From Haloarcula halophila (GTDB lineage: Archaea; Halobacteriota; Halobacteria; Halobacteriales; Haloarculaceae), in contig NZ_CP119560.1 in the NCBI RefSeq assembly GCF_029278565.1, positions 1 to 64,000 of the forward strand: 64,000 nucleotides of DNA, given 5' to 3'. This document shows positions 20,479-28,743 of the stretch, piece by piece. The notes beneath the pieces are model-generated. The model ran no database searches and was not told where the DNA came from. It saw nothing but the letters and a program-made list of their open reading frames with translations. Made by a program: the position numbers and the translations under genes. How positions within the stretch are numbered: position 1 is the first letter of the stretch; every line of letters starts with the position of its first letter.

Positions 20479-21144
20479 ATGACCGATATTAAAGCCGACA
20501 TACGGGTCGAGCATCCCGACATAGTGTGTACGAAGTCGGTCACGTACGACCAAAGTTCGAAAGTGATGTCGGTCTCAGAGGCGGGAACTGACCCAACATC
20601 TAGAACCTTCTATTACTACATCGAATCGTCCGACTTCCACCTGCTCGAAGAGGGATTACGGAATGATAATACCGTTGCTGAATTCGAACGGGTCATCGAA
20701 ACCAGAGATCAGGAGGCGATATATTGCGTCGAATACAGTGGCGAAGGGATACTTTTCTCACCGGTGATTTCAGACGCGAATGGTGTTATCCTCAATAAGA
20801 AAAATAATGGAAGCGCTTGGCTGTTCACAATCTGGCTGACAGAACGAGCAGACCTGCATCAGATCTGGGACTACGCCCAAGAGAACGACATTGACATCGA
20901 GTTACTTCGCGTGAACGAATACGCGAGTTTAGGAAATACGGACGCTGGATTGACCGATAGCCAACGGGAAGCACTCCTCGTCGCACTCGAAACAGGGTAT
21001 TTCGAAGAACCACGGAACGCAACACTCGACGAAGTCGCCGCTGAGTTGGATATCTCGCAACCTGCAGCGGGTGGTCTCCTCCGACGTGGAATCAGGCGAC
21101 TCATCATATCGTCCCTGCTAGCTGAGAGCAAAGCTCCAGAGTAA
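20479..21144 (+). CDS. Bat-like HTH_10 transcriptional regulator
   Basis: A 221-residue protein. The N-terminal 150 residues form a bacterio-opsin-activator-like sensory domain (RTFYYYIESSDFHLLEEGLR, ISDANGVILNKK, AWLFTIWLTERADLHQIWDY). The C-terminal 65 residues are HTH_10 (LTDSQREALLVALETGYFEEPRNATLDEVAAELDIS, with the recognition helix QPAAGGLLRRGIRRL). In this family the HTH binds promoters directly. No PAS/GAF sensor is attached. GC is lower than usual. It is preceded by AT-rich sequence and followed by dispersed-repeat sequence. The regulated target is unknown; the nearby cox1 on the other strand is a neighbour, not a proven target. Confidence 0.85.
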   Translation: MTDIKADIRVEHPDIVCTKSVTYDQSSKVMSVSEAGTDPTSRTFYYYIESSDFHLLEEGLRNDNTVAEFERVIETRDQEAIYCVEYSGEGILFSPVISDANGVILNKKNNGSAWLFTIWLTERADLHQIWDYAQENDIDIELLRVNEYASLGNTDAGLTDSQREALLVALETGYFEEPRNATLDEVAAELDISQPAAGGLLRRGIRRLIISSLLAESKAPE

Positions 21145-21558
21145 CTACGAATCTGACGCCAGTATACTGTGAGGGTTGATGACTGGGTTCTTTCGCGCTG
21201 ACTATGTGCCCTGGATCTTGCACGACTACCGGAACAGCTCTTGAAGCTGGCACAATCGATACACGAATCACTATGAGTAGCTGGCCGGTCCAAAAATCCA
21301 AAATCAACTCTTTAGGAACTGTCCGTTGGCTCTGTGTCTATGTAGTCAACTTTTACTCATACGTCTCACCTACTCAGAGTTGGCAGGTCTCTCCAGGGAA
21401 TTAGTCGTGCTTCTCCCAGCATGCAAGTAGATGCGACCGGCTAAACACCATTGGCCGGCAATCAGTTCTAATGTCGATTACTTCAGAGGTTATACTCATC
21501 GGAGTTGTTTTCTGGATTTGAGGGCCCTGTTTATATCTCGTCCAGTCATACCACTCAT
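21145..21558. repeat. Gene-free region with dispersed repeat, copy D
   Basis: No gene was seen between the two plus-strand genes. Positions about 21300-21430 share blocks with 23465-23580: aactct-t-gaactgtc, gtgactc-gtctctgt/ggctctgtgtctatg, and ggtctctccagggaatta-gtcgtgcttctcccagcatgc, which is the same end as the copies at 12388 and 23565. It is more degraded than copies A and B. Confidence 0.5.
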
Positions 21559-22953
21559 ATGGCAGAGGGATTGCATCGAAAGCTTGTCGAAGAGTTCTCC
21601 GATATTGCGACGATTATCGATTCAGACGGGACGATTACGTATGTGAGTCCCTCGGTCACCCGGATGCTCGGATATGAGCCAGAGGAACTAGTCGGTGAGG
21701 TCGGCTACGAATATCAGCATCCGGACGACCGTGACGCTGTTGCCGACGCCATTGAGAGAATCCAGACAAATCCCGACGACACCCAGATAATCGAGACACG
21801 GTTTCGTCGTGCCGATGGCTCGTGGTGTTGGATCGAGGCGACACTACAAAACCGACTCGACGATCCTGATATCAATGGAATCCTCGTGAATAGCCGTGAC
21901 ATCTCCAAGCGAAAACGGAAGGAACACCAACATCAGGCGCTTGCCAAAGAGTACAAAACACTCCTTGAGAACGTCGATGACAGTATTTTCTTCATAAACG
22001 TCGAGTCAGCGGATGCGAAGTACGTGTTCCGCTTTGAACGTTTGAACCGTGCCTACGAGGAACAAACCGAGATTTCGACCGATGAAGTCCGGGGAAAGAC
22101 TCCAACCGACGTGTTCGGTGAAGACCTCGGGACAGACCTCCAAGCAAACTATCATCGGTGTGCCCGAACTCAGGAACCGATCTCGTATGAGGAGGAGGTT
22201 CCAGTCGAGACGGGCGCACGGTTTTGGCAAACGGTTCTCACACCAGTTCTTACCAACGGCGAAGTGACCCAGATTATCGGTATCACACGGAACATCACAG
22301 AGCGGGTCAAACAGGAGCGACAGCTCCAGAGCCAAAAGGAGCAACTTGACGAGTTCGCAAGCGTAGTGTCACACGATCTGCGGAATCCACTCAGTGTCGC
22401 ACAGGGTCGGTCAGAACTCCTCGCAAACGACTGCGACAGCGACCATCTCCCTCCCATCAGCAGATCACTTGACCGGATGGAAGAAATCATCGCTGATACG
22501 CTCACACTTGCCAGACAGGGCCAAGTTGTCTCAGATCAAGAGCCGATAGATTTAGTCAATTTAGTCGGAAAGTGCTGGAAGAACGTACGATCAGATGAGG
22601 CTACCATCGAGATTGAAGACAAAGTCATGATCACTGGTGATCCGGGTCGACTCCAACACATATTCGAGAACCTCTTTCGGAACGCAATTGAACACGGCGG
22701 GACGGACGTGACTGTCCGAGTCGGCCAAATCGATACACACGGAATTTACGTCGAAGACACTGGTTCAGGGATTCCGGAAGACGCCCGTGAGGCAGTGTTT
22801 GATGCTGGGCATACCTCGGCAAGTGGCGGAACCGGGTTTGGGTTGACAATCGTCAAACGGATCGCAGAGGCCCACGGCTGGAAGGTTAAGATCGTCGAGG
22901 GGATTGATGGTGGAGCCCGATTTGAGTTCACTGATATCGATATCGATCAGTGA
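21559..22953 (+). CDS. PAS-PAS sensor histidine kinase
   Basis: Starting at MAEGLHRKLV, 464 residues. PAS1 (about 10-120) contains IIDSDGTITYVSPSVTRMLGYEPEELVGE. PAS2 (about 140-255) contains FFINVESADAKYVFRFERLN and closes with GITRNITERVKQER. HisKA carries the phospho-acceptor in SHDLRNPLSVAQGRSELL (His about 271). The HATPase domain has the N box FENLFRNAIEHGG (about 370), G1 VEDTGSGIP (about 400) and G2 [13 protein letters not shown] (about 424). There are no membrane helices, so it is cytoplasmic. No response regulator is adjacent, which is common for haloarchaeal kinases. The longer frame from 21505 adds a tail with no similarity. Confidence 0.93.
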   Translation: MAEGLHRKLVEEFSDIATIIDSDGTITYVSPSVTRMLGYEPEELVGEVGYEYQHPDDRDAVADAIERIQTNPDDTQIIETRFRRADGSWCWIEATLQNRLDDPDINGILVNSRDISKRKRKEHQHQALAKEYKTLLENVDDSIFFINVESADAKYVFRFERLNRAYEEQTEISTDEVRGKTPTDVFGEDLGTDLQANYHRCARTQEPISYEEEVPVETGARFWQTVLTPVLTNGEVTQIIGITRNITERVKQERQLQSQKEQLDEFASVVSHDLRNPLSVAQGRSELLANDCDSDHLPPISRSLDRMEEIIADTLTLARQGQVVSDQEPIDLVNLVGKCWKNVRSDEATIEIEDKVMITGDPGRLQHIFENLFRNAIEHGGTDVTVRVGQIDTHGIYVEDTGSGIPEDAREAVFDAGHTSASGGTGFGLTIVKRIAEAHGWKVKIVEGIDGGARFEFTDIDIDQ

Positions 22954-23701: not shown

Positions 23702-24079
23702 ATGCCGGGTGAGATACTCGTCGTCGACGACGACGAAACGATCAGGCGGCTCGTCTCCCACCGGCTCGAAGCGGCGGGCTACGACGTGCGGACCTGCGAG
23801 GACGGCCGCGAAGCGGCCGACCTGTTGGGGACCGACTACCGGCCTGACCTCGTCGTGATGGACGTGATGATGCCCCGCCTCGACGGAACGCGGTTGGCCC
23901 GGATGGTCCGCAAGGGAGAACTCGCGGTCCCGACGGACCTGCCGATCGTGATGCTCACTTCCCGTGGCCGGGAGGAACACGTCCTCGAAGGATTCGACGC
24001 GGGCGTCGACGACTACGTGACGAAACCGTTCCGGAGCGCGGAGCTCGTCGCCAGAGTCCGGAGGCAGATGGATGGTTGA
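23702..24079 (+). CDS. Stand-alone response regulator receiver protein
   Basis: The 125-residue protein is a single receiver domain: acidic pocket D9-D10-D11, phospho-acceptor D54 (VVMDVMMP), T86/S87 (LTSRG) and K108 (VTKPF), ending MDG without an output domain. It is the first gene of a four-gene operon: it overlaps the HEAT protein by 8 bases. A single receiver of this kind usually acts by docking on a partner. The membrane HEAT-repeat protein or the glycosyltransferase encoded downstream are the obvious candidates, and the GAF histidine kinase at the end of the operon is the likely phosphate donor. These links are inferred from gene order. Confidence 0.93.
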   Translation: MPGEILVVDDDETIRRLVSHRLEAAGYDVRTCEDGREAADLLGTDYRPDLVVMDVMMPRLDGTRLARMVRKGELAVPTDLPIVMLTSRGREEHVLEGFDAGVDDYVTKPFRSAELVARVRRQMDG

Positions 24080-25220
24080 GCCGGTCGTGCTCCAGACGGG
24101 CGACGTGGTCGCGTTCGGCTACACGGTCCCGTTGACTGTCGTCGTGGTCATGCTGGCACTCGTGATCGCGCTTGCGCTGGCGGTTTCGATGTTTCTGACG
24201 GTTGGGCTCTCGGTGTACCACTCGGTACAGGACACCCAGCGCGAGCGGGTCAAACCGGACTTGCGCGAGGAACTACTGAGCCGGCTGTTCAGTCAGGACC
24301 CGGACTGGGAAGCACTCGTCGCGGACTGTTCACGCACCGAACGGCGCGTCCTCGAATCCCTGCTCGACGAACACCTCCGGGAACTCGACGGCAGCGATGC
24401 CGACCGGCTCAGAGAGTTGGGCGACGCCCTCGGGATTCCCGACCGGGCTCGACGCCGGCTCGGGAGCGGGAACGAGTACCGACGGCTCCACGCGCTGACG
24501 TGGCTGACACTGCTCCGGCGGCCGGAGCCGTACGTCGAGTCCTCGTTCGAGCCCGAGACCCCGCGTGAGCGGGCCGCGGCGGTTACACTTTTGCAGGCGT
24601 GTGACCGGCTCCCCGACGCGGAGACGGGGGTATCACTCCTGCTCGACGGCGCGAACGAGCAGTTCAGCGTATTCGGTCAGGACACCCTCTACCGTGTCGC
24701 ACGTAGCGACCCGGAGCCGCTGTTGGCCCGCGCGAGCAGCCACTATCGCGACTGGCCCGAGCCGCTGCTCGCACAGGTACTGGCGGTCTGTTCGCAGTTG
24801 GAGACCAGCGTCGGCGACCGGAGCTTAGAGTGGGTGACCGCCGCCCTGGAGACCGAAAACGAGGCGATCCGGGCGGCGGCCGCTGACACACTGGGTAGTT
24901 TCGGCTGGCGGGCATCGCTCCGCGACCAGCTATTCCTCGAACGGGCGACCGACGATCCCTCGCCCCGCGTTCGCGCGGCGGTGTACGAGATGCTCGCCTC
25001 GTGGGGCGACCGGGAAGCGATCACCGTCCTCCTGTTCGCGCTCGTCGAGGAGACCGACCCCCGGGCGCTGACACTCGGGACGACGGCGCTGGTCGGCCGC
25101 CGGGACCACGTCGACCACGACACGGCGGCGGTGTTGGGGCCCGCCTGGGACTGGAGCTTCGAACACTCGGAGTACGACCGCATCGCCGGTCGCGTGACCG
25201 CCGGGACGGTGCGTGGGTAG
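24072..25220 (+). CDS. Membrane-anchored HEAT-repeat protein
   Basis: The 382-residue protein has one strong N-terminal membrane helix (TVVVVMLALVIALALAVSMFLTV, core about 22-42), then a cytoplasmic basic/acidic linker and helical repeats. HEAT-like units are visible at about 135-375, e.g. EYRRLHALTWLTLLRRPEPY, TPRERAAAVTLLQACDRLPD, ENEAIRAAAADTLGSFG and DPSPRVRAAVYEMLASWGD. HEAT solenoids bind proteins, so it may be a scaffold joining the receiver protein to the membrane glycosyltransferase. It overlaps the upstream receiver by 8 bases and is followed at once by the GT2 gene (ATG 25222). No enzymatic motif was seen. Confidence 0.85.
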   Translation: MVEPVVLQTGDVVAFGYTVPLTVVVVMLALVIALALAVSMFLTVGLSVYHSVQDTQRERVKPDLREELLSRLFSQDPDWEALVADCSRTERRVLESLLDEHLRELDGSDADRLRELGDALGIPDRARRRLGSGNEYRRLHALTWLTLLRRPEPYVESSFEPETPRERAAAVTLLQACDRLPDAETGVSLLLDGANEQFSVFGQDTLYRVARSDPEPLLARASSHYRDWPEPLLAQVLAVCSQLETSVGDRSLEWVTAALETENEAIRAAAADTLGSFGWRASLRDQLFLERATDDPSPRVRAAVYEMLASWGDREAITVLLFALVEETDPRALTLGTTALVGRRDHVDHDTAAVLGPAWDWSFEHSEYDRIAGRVTAGTVRG

Positions 25221-25221
25221 G

Positions 25222-26649
25222 ATGCACTCGCCGGAACACGTCGTGGGGACGGCGCTGCTGGTGTTTGGCGTGTTCGTCGTCGGCTACTACGCCGCCATCA
25301 ACGCCGGCTATCTACTGTTGCACGTCCTGGCGCTGCTGGAGCTTCGCGACGACGTCCGCGAGTCCGAGTGGGACCCCCCCTTCCGGGAGTTCACGTCGCC
25401 GTTTTACCCTGGGATCGGGATCGTCCTCCCGGCGTACAACGAGGAGGCGACGATCGTCGAGAGCGTCCAGTCGATGCTGTCGCTGAACTACCCGGAGATC
25501 GAGGTCGTCGTCGTCAACGACGGCTCGACCGACGCGACCGTCGAGCGCCTGGTCGAGCACTTCGATCTGGAACCAGTCGACGCCGACATCCCCTTCGAGG
25601 TCCCTGCCGAGGAGATCCACGGCGTCTACCGCTCGCGGATCTACGAGGAGTTGCTCGTCGTCGACAAGGACAATGGCGGGAAAAGCGACGCGCTCAACGC
25701 CGGTCTCTGGCTCACCGAGATGCCGCTGTTCTGTGCGGTCGACTCGGATACGGTCATCGACCGGGAGGCGCTGCTGTCGCTGGTCAGGCCCTTCCTGGAG
25801 GCGCCGACGACGGCGGTCGCCTCGGGCGGCGTGATCCGCGTCGCGAACAACTGCCGGATCGAGGACGGGGTCGTCAAGGACGTGTCGTTGCCCAAAACCG
25901 GGCTCGCCGGACTGCAGGTGATGGAGTACCTCCGGGCCTTCTACTCGGGCCGACTGGGGCTCAACCGGCTCAACGGCCTCATCCTTATTTCGGGCGCGTT
26001 CGGGCTGTTTCAGACCGAGACGGTCCGTGAGATCGGCGGCTACCGCCACGACACGATCACCGAGGACTTCGACATCGTCGTCCGGCTCCACCGCCATCTC
26101 AAGGAGACCGACCGGGAGTACACCGTCGACTTCGTCCCGGAACCAGTCGCGTGGACGGAGGTCCCCTCGACACGCCGGGTCCTGGGCCGACAGCGCCGAC
26201 GGTGGTACCGGGGGATGGTCGAGACTGTCGTCACCCATCGGCGGATGGTCGGCAACCCACGATACGGGCGCGTCGGCTGGTTCGTCATGCCCTTCTTCGT
26301 GATGGCGGAGACGGTCGGCCCGCTGATCGAGGGGATCGGCTACGTCCTGTTGCCCCTCGCCTGGTACTTCGGCTTCCTGAACGTCGAGTTCTTCCTCGCC
26401 TTCTTCCTGTTGACGACCGGATTCGGGATCTTCCTCTCGTGGTTCGGCGTCTTCAGTGAGGTCTGGAGTTTCAACCGCTACGATAGCCCGTGGCAGGTGC
26501 TCCGGCTGCTCTGGTACGGCGTCCTGGAGAACTTCGGCTACCGGCAGTGGAAGACCATCGTCGCGTGGCAGGGACTGTTCGAGTACCTCAGGGGCGTGGA
26601 CACTTGGGGGGCCATGGAGCGGACCGGCTTCTCGACCCGGGACGATTAG
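25222..26649 (+). CDS. Processive family 2 glycosyltransferase, membrane-bound
   Basis: The 475-residue enzyme begins at ATG 25222 (a GTG at 25213 is in frame). An N-terminal membrane helix is followed by the GT-A domain: PAYNEEATIVESV, VVVVNDGSTDAT (about 94-105), DSD metal site in CAVDSDTVID (about 174), the base motif TEDFDIVVR (about 280) and GRQRRRWYRG (QxxRW, about 322). QxxRW marks processive beta-glycan synthases such as cellulose, hyaluronan, chitin or PNAG synthases. Three to four C-terminal helices (FVMPFFVMAETVGPLIEGIG, FFLAFFLLTTGFGIFLSWFG) form the export channel region. It probably polymerises and extrudes a surface polysaccharide, under control of the neighbouring two-component genes. 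The sugar is unknown. Confidence 0.92.
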   Translation: MHSPEHVVGTALLVFGVFVVGYYAAINAGYLLLHVLALLELRDDVRESEWDPPFREFTSPFYPGIGIVLPAYNEEATIVESVQSMLSLNYPEIEVVVVNDGSTDATVERLVEHFDLEPVDADIPFEVPAEEIHGVYRSRIYEELLVVDKDNGGKSDALNAGLWLTEMPLFCAVDSDTVIDREALLSLVRPFLEAPTTAVASGGVIRVANNCRIEDGVVKDVSLPKTGLAGLQVMEYLRAFYSGRLGLNRLNGLILISGAFGLFQTETVREIGGYRHDTITEDFDIVVRLHRHLKETDREYTVDFVPEPVAWTEVPSTRRVLGRQRRRWYRGMVETVVTHRRMVGNPRYGRVGWFVMPFFVMAETVGPLIEGIGYVLLPLAWYFGFLNVEFFLAFFLLTTGFGIFLSWFGVFSEVWSFNRYDSPWQVLRLLWYGVLENFGYRQWKTIVAWQGLFEYLRGVDTWGAMERTGFSTRDD

Positions 26650-26672
26650 TGACTCGGCCGTGAAGACGGGTT

Positions 26673-27830
26673 ATGTCCGAACAGGAGGTACGGAACTACT
26701 TCCGGGATCTCTACGAGCTCGGGGCGGACTCGTCGGCGACGCTAGACGAGAAGATCGAACGGGCGATCGCCGTCGGTCGAGACCGGCTCGACGTCGACTA
26801 CGGGGTACTCTCGTTCACCGGGGACGGCGAGTACGAGGTCGTCGGCTCGACGATCGAGAGCGGCGATTACTCCGCCGGATCGGTCCACGACCTGGACACC
26901 ACCTGGTGCCGGCACGTCGTCGACGACGAGGAACTACTGATGATCGCCGACGCGGGGTCGTCGGCCTACGCGGACGACATCGCGCGCGAAGTGACCGGCC
27001 TCCAGTGTTACATCGGGGCGCCGATCACCGTCGACGGCGAGATCTACGGGACGTTGTGTTTCTCGGGGGAACAACCCCGTGATCGGTCCTTCGACGGGGA
27101 CGAGCAGCGGTTCGTCGAACTGCTGACCCGCTGGATCGGCCACGAGATCGAACGGGAACGTCACTACCGGGCTCTGGACGCACAGAACGAGCGGTTAGAC
27201 GAGTTTGCGGGTGTTTTGGCACACGACCTGCGGAACCCGTTGACCAGTGCGTACGGGTACACGGAACTGGCGTCCGAGACGGTCTCGGAACCGGAATCGG
27301 AGTATCTCGAGACGGCCCTCGATTCGCTCGATCGAATGGATGAGATGATCACCGAGACGCTGTCGCTCGCCCGGGAGGGCATCGACGTCGGCGAGCGGGA
27401 GTCGGTCCGGCTCTCGGAGGTCGCTCGCAGTGCCTGGAACACGATCGACCCCGACACCGCGACCCTGGAGATCGTCGACGACAGATCGATCCGGGCGGAC
27501 GCCTCTCGTCTCCGCCACCTCTTCGAGAACCTGTTCAGGAACGTCGACGAACACTGCGGCCCGGGGACCCGGGTGACCGTCGAGGGAACCGACGACGGCT
27601 TCGCCGTCGAGGACACGGGTCCGGGGTTGCCCGCCGACGTTGCGGACTCGTTGTTCGGCGGCGAGTACGGCGACGGCCGCCGTGGGCTCGGCCTGCTCAT
27701 CATCGAACGCGTCGTCTCCGGGCACGGCTGGACGGGCCAGGCCCGTGTGACGGACGCCGGCACCCGCTTTGTCTTCTCGGGCGTGGGCACCGTGACGGAG
27801 ACTCCGGCGACGGCTTCCCGGCCGGAGTGA
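26673..27830 (+). CDS. GAF-domain histidine kinase
   Basis: The 385-residue protein has a GAF domain at about 20-165 (YGVLSFTGDGEYEVV, TTWCRHVVDDEELLMIADAG, QCYIGAPITVDGEIYGTLCF). HisKA follows with HDLRNPLTSAYGYTEL (His about 183), then HATPase with LFENLFRNVDEHCG, VEDTGPGLP and RRGLGLLIIERVVSGHGW. In the N box the usual Asn is present but Ala-Val-Glu is changed to VDEH. It lacks membrane helices. It lies 24 bases after the glycosyltransferase gene in the same direction, so it is probably the sensory input for the polysaccharide operon. The C-terminal tail is Thr/Pro-rich and short. Confidence 0.92.
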   Translation: MSEQEVRNYFRDLYELGADSSATLDEKIERAIAVGRDRLDVDYGVLSFTGDGEYEVVGSTIESGDYSAGSVHDLDTTWCRHVVDDEELLMIADAGSSAYADDIAREVTGLQCYIGAPITVDGEIYGTLCFSGEQPRDRSFDGDEQRFVELLTRWIGHEIERERHYRALDAQNERLDEFAGVLAHDLRNPLTSAYGYTELASETVSEPESEYLETALDSLDRMDEMITETLSLAREGIDVGERESVRLSEVARSAWNTIDPDTATLEIVDDRSIRADASRLRHLFENLFRNVDEHCGPGTRVTVEGTDDGFAVEDTGPGLPADVADSLFGGEYGDGRRGLGLLIIERVVSGHGWTGQARVTDAGTRFVFSGVGTVTETPATASRPE

Positions 27831-28344: not shown

Positions 28345-28743
28345 TCAGTCCCTCGCGACAACCGGGGCCGAGATGTGTCGGTTGATACAGGCAGTCAGGT
28401 CGCTGCGGGCAATCGGCTTAGTGAGATAGTCATCAAGACCGTCCGGTACTGACTCTTCGGCGTCAACTGCCGAGACCATTACGAACGGGACCTCGATAGC
28501 GTGCTCTTGTATCCGGGTGTAAAGTTCGTCCCCAGACATCTCGGGCATTCGCCGGTCGCTCAAAACGAGGTCAATCTCGTCGGTAATCAGTCCGAGTGCG
28601 ATAGCACCGTTCGCTGCTGTCTGCACATTGTATGTCTGCTGAAGATAGAGTTCGTATATTTCCCGCACATCTGGGTCGTCCTCAACAAGAAGAACAGTAG
28701 GGAGCGGTGATTGTCTGTCACGATCGGGCGAAACTGAGGTCAC
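28345..28743 (-). CDS. Stand-alone response regulator receiver protein
   Basis: A 132-residue receiver domain with acidic pocket E21-D22-D23, phospho-acceptor D63 in LVLSDRRMPEMSG, S91 and K109 (YLTKP). The DRRMPEMSG form is typical of the haloarchaeal HalX-type receivers, but the HalX output domain is missing; the protein ends HISAPVVARD. It may be a natural single-domain regulator or a HalX protein shortened by the same rearrangements that left IS remnants to the right. It is convergent with the broken gene at 27902. A partner kinase is not adjacent. Confidence 0.9.
   Translation of the reverse strand: MTSVSPDRDRQSPLPTVLLVEDDPDVREIYELYLQQTYNVQTAANGAIALGLITDEIDLVLSDRRMPEMSGDELYTRIQEHAIEVPFVMVSAVDAEESVPDGLDDYLTKPIARSDLTACINRHISAPVVARD

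Follow-up and report, generated by a model that had tools for sequence, protein, structure and literature searches.

What does a receiver control if it has no output domain and is encoded immediately ahead of a membrane-anchored HEAT-repeat protein and a membrane glycosyltransferase? Most stand-alone archaeal receivers lack a conserved gene neighborhood (Galperin et al. 2018; PMC5847659). The locus described here lies in a 64,000-nucleotide stretch of the Haloarcula halophila genome (contig NZ_CP119560.1, positions 1 to 64,000; hereafter the window), where four open reading frames, all on the forward strand, form one tight operon at 23702-27830. An earlier note on this DNA had read them as a receiver (REC), a HEAT protein, a glycosyltransferase (GT2) and a GAF kinase (HK) running in one direction, and these frames are indeed present (Table 1). 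The REC and HEAT frames overlap by 8 bases. Listed from the GTG at 25213, GT2 likewise overlaps HEAT by 8 bases; from the ATG at 25222 it follows a 1-base gap and encodes 475 residues, and this is the likelier start because that length agrees with those of close relatives. HK begins 23 bases past the end of GT2.

Table 1. Features of the operon and its flanks, in window coordinates.
Feature	Position	Strand	Size and domain matches
HTH_10 (bacterio-opsin-activator-like) regulator, upstream of the operon	20479-21144	+	
PAS histidine kinase, upstream of the operon	21505-22953	+	
REC, stand-alone response-regulator receiver	23702-24079	+	125 aa; PF00072, E 3.1e-29
HEAT, single-pass membrane protein	24072-25220	+	382 aa; HEAT_2, E 2.6e-11
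GT2, membrane-embedded polysaccharide synthase (predicted)	25222-26649 (alternative start GTG 25213)	+	PF00535/PF13641
HK, soluble GAF-HisKA-HATPase histidine kinase	26673-27830	+	PF01590, PF00512, PF02518
Second stand-alone receiver, just downstream of the operon	28345-28743	-	

REC has the full set of features of a two-component receiver (a PF00072 domain with acid pair, phospho-Asp, T/S and K), retaining D9/D10, the phospho-acceptor D54, T86 and K108. HK comprises GAF (24-159), HisKA (175-234) and HATPase (276-368) domains with an H-box, HDLRNP, at 184, and has no membrane segment; it is presumed to be the partner of REC. In Haloarcula, Halorhabdus, Halovenus, Halorarius and Haloarchaeobius, GT2 is followed by a homologous GAF kinase; in most Halorubrum this kinase lies behind GT2 in convergent orientation. 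The upstream HTH_10 and PAS kinase pair (20479-22953) is a possible second input to REC. An apparent second copy of the operon at C2:490728, in which small deletions disrupt the GT2 frame, was rejected as contig-end redundancy: window positions 1-58034 are 99.93% identical, with 26 gaps, to the final 58 kb of the contig on which they lie (C2:467011-525049), the two ends of this circular replicon of ~467 kb having been left overlapping. A genus-mate (G366) also has two copies with identical scores, at C1:36317 and C1:3486155, perhaps with the same cause.

GT2 is predicted to be a processive polysaccharide synthase, as judged by its motifs and a membrane-embedded synthase fold, and the long-polymer activity implied by this assignment is likewise a prediction. 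The motifs comprise NDGSTD (102), DSD (177), TED (283-285) and QRRRW (327-331), and the key D, DxD, ED and QxxRW residues occupy invariant columns of a 64-sequence alignment. An AF2 monomer model built from the family alignment (pLDDT 90, pTM 0.88) superposes on hyaluronan synthases with Z scores of 25-28.6 over ~380-396 residues (rmsd 3.0-3.7), the best of these at Z 28.6, rmsd 3.2 and 393 residues, and also matches cellulose and chitin synthases over its whole length. The processive type proposed in the earlier note is thus upheld by both motif and predicted fold. The highest Z score, however, belongs to the mannosyltransferase PcManGT (6yv7; Z 31.1, rmsd 2.9, 338 residues), and in haloarchaeal loci no secretion partner was identified alongside GT2; both observations would suit an enzyme that is not a processive exopolysaccharide synthase and instead transfers sugar to a lipid or S-layer glycan. 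We consider this very unlikely, given that the QxxRW and ED motifs are invariant, that the resemblance to hyaluronan, cellulose and chitin synthases covers the full length, and that some bacterial relatives adjoin TPR/YaiO outer-membrane barrels. Among NCBIfam models PgaC scores highest, yet membership of PgaC/IcaA (TIGR03937) was rejected at 127.5 against a cut-off of 422.3 bits, as was membership of CelA/BcsA (TIGR03030; 42.5 against 699.1 bits). Many Halorubrum GT2s (L044-L053) carry a C-terminal extension of ~190 residues, and that of L046 has no significant Pfam match.

The HEAT protein comprises ~20 residues, a transmembrane helix that spans the single hydrophobic segment (residues 23-41) and continues to residue 72, and then a HEAT solenoid of ~300 residues. 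Its HEAT_2 (PF13646) match scores 44.1 bits, above the gathering cut-off of 27.7, and the AF2 monomer model from the family alignment (pLDDT 94, pTM 0.86) has a solenoid fold of alphaRep/importin-like repeats, whose only structural matches are generic HEAT/ARM proteins, with Z scores common for such repeats. The genomic context is more specific. At the family level, 26 of 146 genomes carry GT2 and 26 carry HEAT, with 25 carrying both (Fisher p 7e-26); a 330-contig draft and a genome with HEAT only account for the two mismatches. In all 27 listed family pairs, counting the second copies that two genomes carry, HEAT and GT2 are neighbors, and -2 to 238 nt separate the two matches. Rare co-location in relatives, which the earlier note had named as grounds for abandoning the association, is therefore the opposite of what we found. 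Where two GT2 paralogs and two HEAT genes are present (G143 and G372), each HEAT gene adjoins its own GT2. At the order level the HEAT protein occurs in 23 of 146 genomes, and all 22 of the non-self HEAT genes adjoin a GT2 of the same family.

This near-obligate linkage extends far beyond the Halobacteria. A single genome-contig scan yielded 80 GT2 loci, 24 haloarchaeal and 56 bacterial, the latter spanning Pseudomonadota, Bacillota, Actinomycetota, Bacteroidota, Gemmatimonadota, Deinococcota, Nitrospirota, Bipolaricaulota and others. Their flanks were searched with an iterated HEAT profile in whose training adjacency was not used. HEAT lies directly upstream of GT2 on the same strand, often with an ATGA overlap, in 69 of the 79 evaluable loci, is displaced but nearby in 8, mainly in Nitrospira, and is absent from 2; across the 937 kb of flanks the profile found no HEAT matches beyond these upstream and displaced genes. 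In five Nitrospira loci (L094, L099, L100, L102 and L107) HEAT and GT2 are on opposite strands, 1.6-2.0 kb apart. The module is thus not specific to haloarchaea, being found in bacterial phyla and Halobacteria alike. The archaeal and bacterial HEAT proteins are only ~10-22% identical, so their homology rests largely on a common architecture, one transmembrane helix plus a solenoid, and a common position. We are confident that HEAT and GT2 are partners. Other neighbors are more sporadic: a sulfatase-family (PF00884) gene, which may decorate the polymer, follows the module in a Bacteroidota locus (L064, 7379-9400) and in Stenotrophomonas (L071, 8742-11120), and in Bacilli a large protein of 770-1077 aa follows GT2 (L078, 7368-9674; L090, 7398-10568; L110, 7371-10604). 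The two of these large proteins that were scanned, from L078 and L090, gave no Pfam match; in L078 and L110 the protein is in turn followed by a REC and a large kinase.

The position of REC relative to HEAT is also recurrent. REC directly precedes HEAT in all 24 haloarchaeal loci and in 20 of the 42 evaluable bacterial loci, with a further 7 bacterial loci having REC within 2.5 kb; no upstream REC was found in the other 15, one of which (L058) has a REC directly downstream. In every adjacent case the REC domain ends 0-10 residues before the C-terminus of the upstream protein, and ahead of it may stand GGDEF (L065, L076, L110), Hpt (L078, L085), another REC, or nothing. REC is therefore the constant part and the front module the variable one. 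HEAT accompanies GT2 even where REC is missing, as in the Stenotrophomonas, Clostridium and Thermomonas types, and because of this HEAT would belong first to the synthase, with REC an exchangeable input. The same loci might be explained if HEAT were an assembly, localization or stability factor for GT2 that relays no signal, the kinase and REC being merely co-transcribed. Against this stands the recurrence of REC immediately upstream of HEAT, always C-terminal, in both domains of life, and we regard such a non-signaling role for HEAT as quite unlikely. In four bacterial loci (L063, L070, L090 and L108) the HEAT-adjacent REC has lost its phospho-Asp to G or N, and phosphorylation is therefore not always the signal; retention of such receivers beside HEAT would fit REC acting as a docking domain even when unphosphorylated.

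An alternative route from REC to polymer runs through transcription. In archaea, response-regulator and HTH genes often share neighborhoods (PMC5847659), and an HTH_10 regulator and a PAS kinase do lie upstream of this operon; HEAT and GT2 could thus form the synthase while REC works through a transcription regulator, for instance this HTH_10, either by passing phosphate to it or by binding it, and so controls expression rather than enzyme activity. We judge this unlikely, since REC is found next to HEAT across distant phyla and with a range of fusion partners, and since Methanobacteriaceae have fusions of REC with a BcsA-like glycosyltransferase (MTH_548 type; PMC5847659). In these archaeal fusions a receiver is joined to a PF13641 glycosyltransferase, which by analogy sets a separate precedent for an enzyme of this kind being controlled by REC directly; they comprise a single polypeptide, however, with no HEAT subunit mentioned (PMC5847659). 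We thus favor, with moderate confidence, action of REC on HEAT or GT2 rather than on transcription.

The genome itself bears on which signal reaches the synthase. Searches of it for GGDEF (PF00990) and PilZ (PF07238) gave 0 matches, with control families positive, and most archaea lack GGDEF regulators (PMC5847659); because both families are missing, c-di-GMP is an unlikely input here and phosphorelay the obvious one. The proposal in the earlier note of phosphorelay in place of c-di-GMP is therefore supported for this organism. It does not carry over cleanly to bacteria, in which c-di-GMP may act in parallel, since the C-terminal REC is often fused there to GGDEF or Hpt. The donor sugar, too, is hinted at by neighboring genes. 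A glmU-like gene and glmS stand beside REC, divergently oriented, in 10 Halorubrum loci; in Halosolutus the pair is directly downstream of GT2, and in another two Halorubrum loci glmS occupies the opposite flank. Because of this proximity, UDP-GlcNAc is suggested as the donor. The two glmU-like proteins scanned score 259-260, below the archaeal GlmU cut-off of 292, and glmS is not linked to the operon in the Haloarcula halophila genome. A product containing GlcNAc is accordingly a tentative proposal.

A branch with 100/100 support separates the haloarchaeal GT2s from the rest of the tree, and in the phylum sample strong GT2 matches occur only in members of the window's order. Within this group, the GT2 of the window is nearer to that of Haloarchaeobius (86%) than to that of a congener (G020; 77%). 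This pattern fits one transfer between domains, with its direction a matter of inference, followed by exchange among haloarchaea.

Several known synthases share parts of this design. The poly-GlcNAc synthases PgaCD and IcaAD pair a membrane GT2 with a dedicated membrane subunit. The present system resembles them in having such a partner, and in the GlcNAc supply genes near some relatives of its GT2, but the partner here is a HEAT solenoid and the genome lacks c-di-GMP machinery. With the cellulose synthase BcsA-BcsB it shares the processive GT2 fold and the D, DxD, ED and QxxRW motifs; unlike BcsA-BcsB it has no PilZ, and control apparently runs via REC and HEAT. In NfrB-NfrA and the XagB-like Sfz2, too, a GT2 exopolysaccharide synthase has a control part other than PilZ (PMC8669469, PMC8250860); there it is fused, as a c-di-GMP-binding MshEN (NfrB) or EpsE-like domain (Sfz2), whereas HEAT is a separate protein. 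Identity with the Sfz/Xag clusters was rejected, as the EpsE-like domain is fused to the GT2 of Sfz2 and their descriptions mention no HEAT gene. Each part is of a known kind; what seems not to have been described is their combination and how widely it occurs: we found no account of a HEAT-GT2 or REC-HEAT-GT2 system in the open-access literature.

Taken together, we propose that the four genes specify an exopolysaccharide system of the synthase-dependent type, controlled directly by two-component signaling. GT2 would polymerize sugar and extrude the polymer, which probably contains N-acetylhexosamine, across the single membrane, with the one-helix HEAT protein as a dedicated subunit beside it, its solenoid in the cytosol and in putative physical complex with GT2. 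The soluble GAF kinase would sense a cytosolic signal and phosphorylate REC, which, lacking an output domain, may dock on the solenoid of HEAT, or reach GT2 through HEAT, and would thereby turn polymer synthesis on or off, the direction of the switch being inferred as well. On the comparative sequence evidence, HEAT is probably such a dedicated subunit, with REC phosphorylation gating synthesis through it. More speculatively, REC-HEAT-GT2 could represent an as yet undescribed class of exopolysaccharide synthases common to bacteria and haloarchaea, in which HEAT is the obligatory regulatory subunit, REC rather than c-di-GMP the ancestral direct switch, and GGDEF and Hpt later additions before REC; we hold this wider reading only tentatively.

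Among well-studied synthases that are regulated, many have c-di-GMP as their switch. The module suggests a second, phosphorelay-based way of gating a processive synthase, in organisms without c-di-GMP proteins, and would assign a defined output to one stand-alone receiver among the many in archaea that are orphans. Since the HEAT-GT2 pair occurs in many bacterial phyla, including culturable members, it is directly testable.
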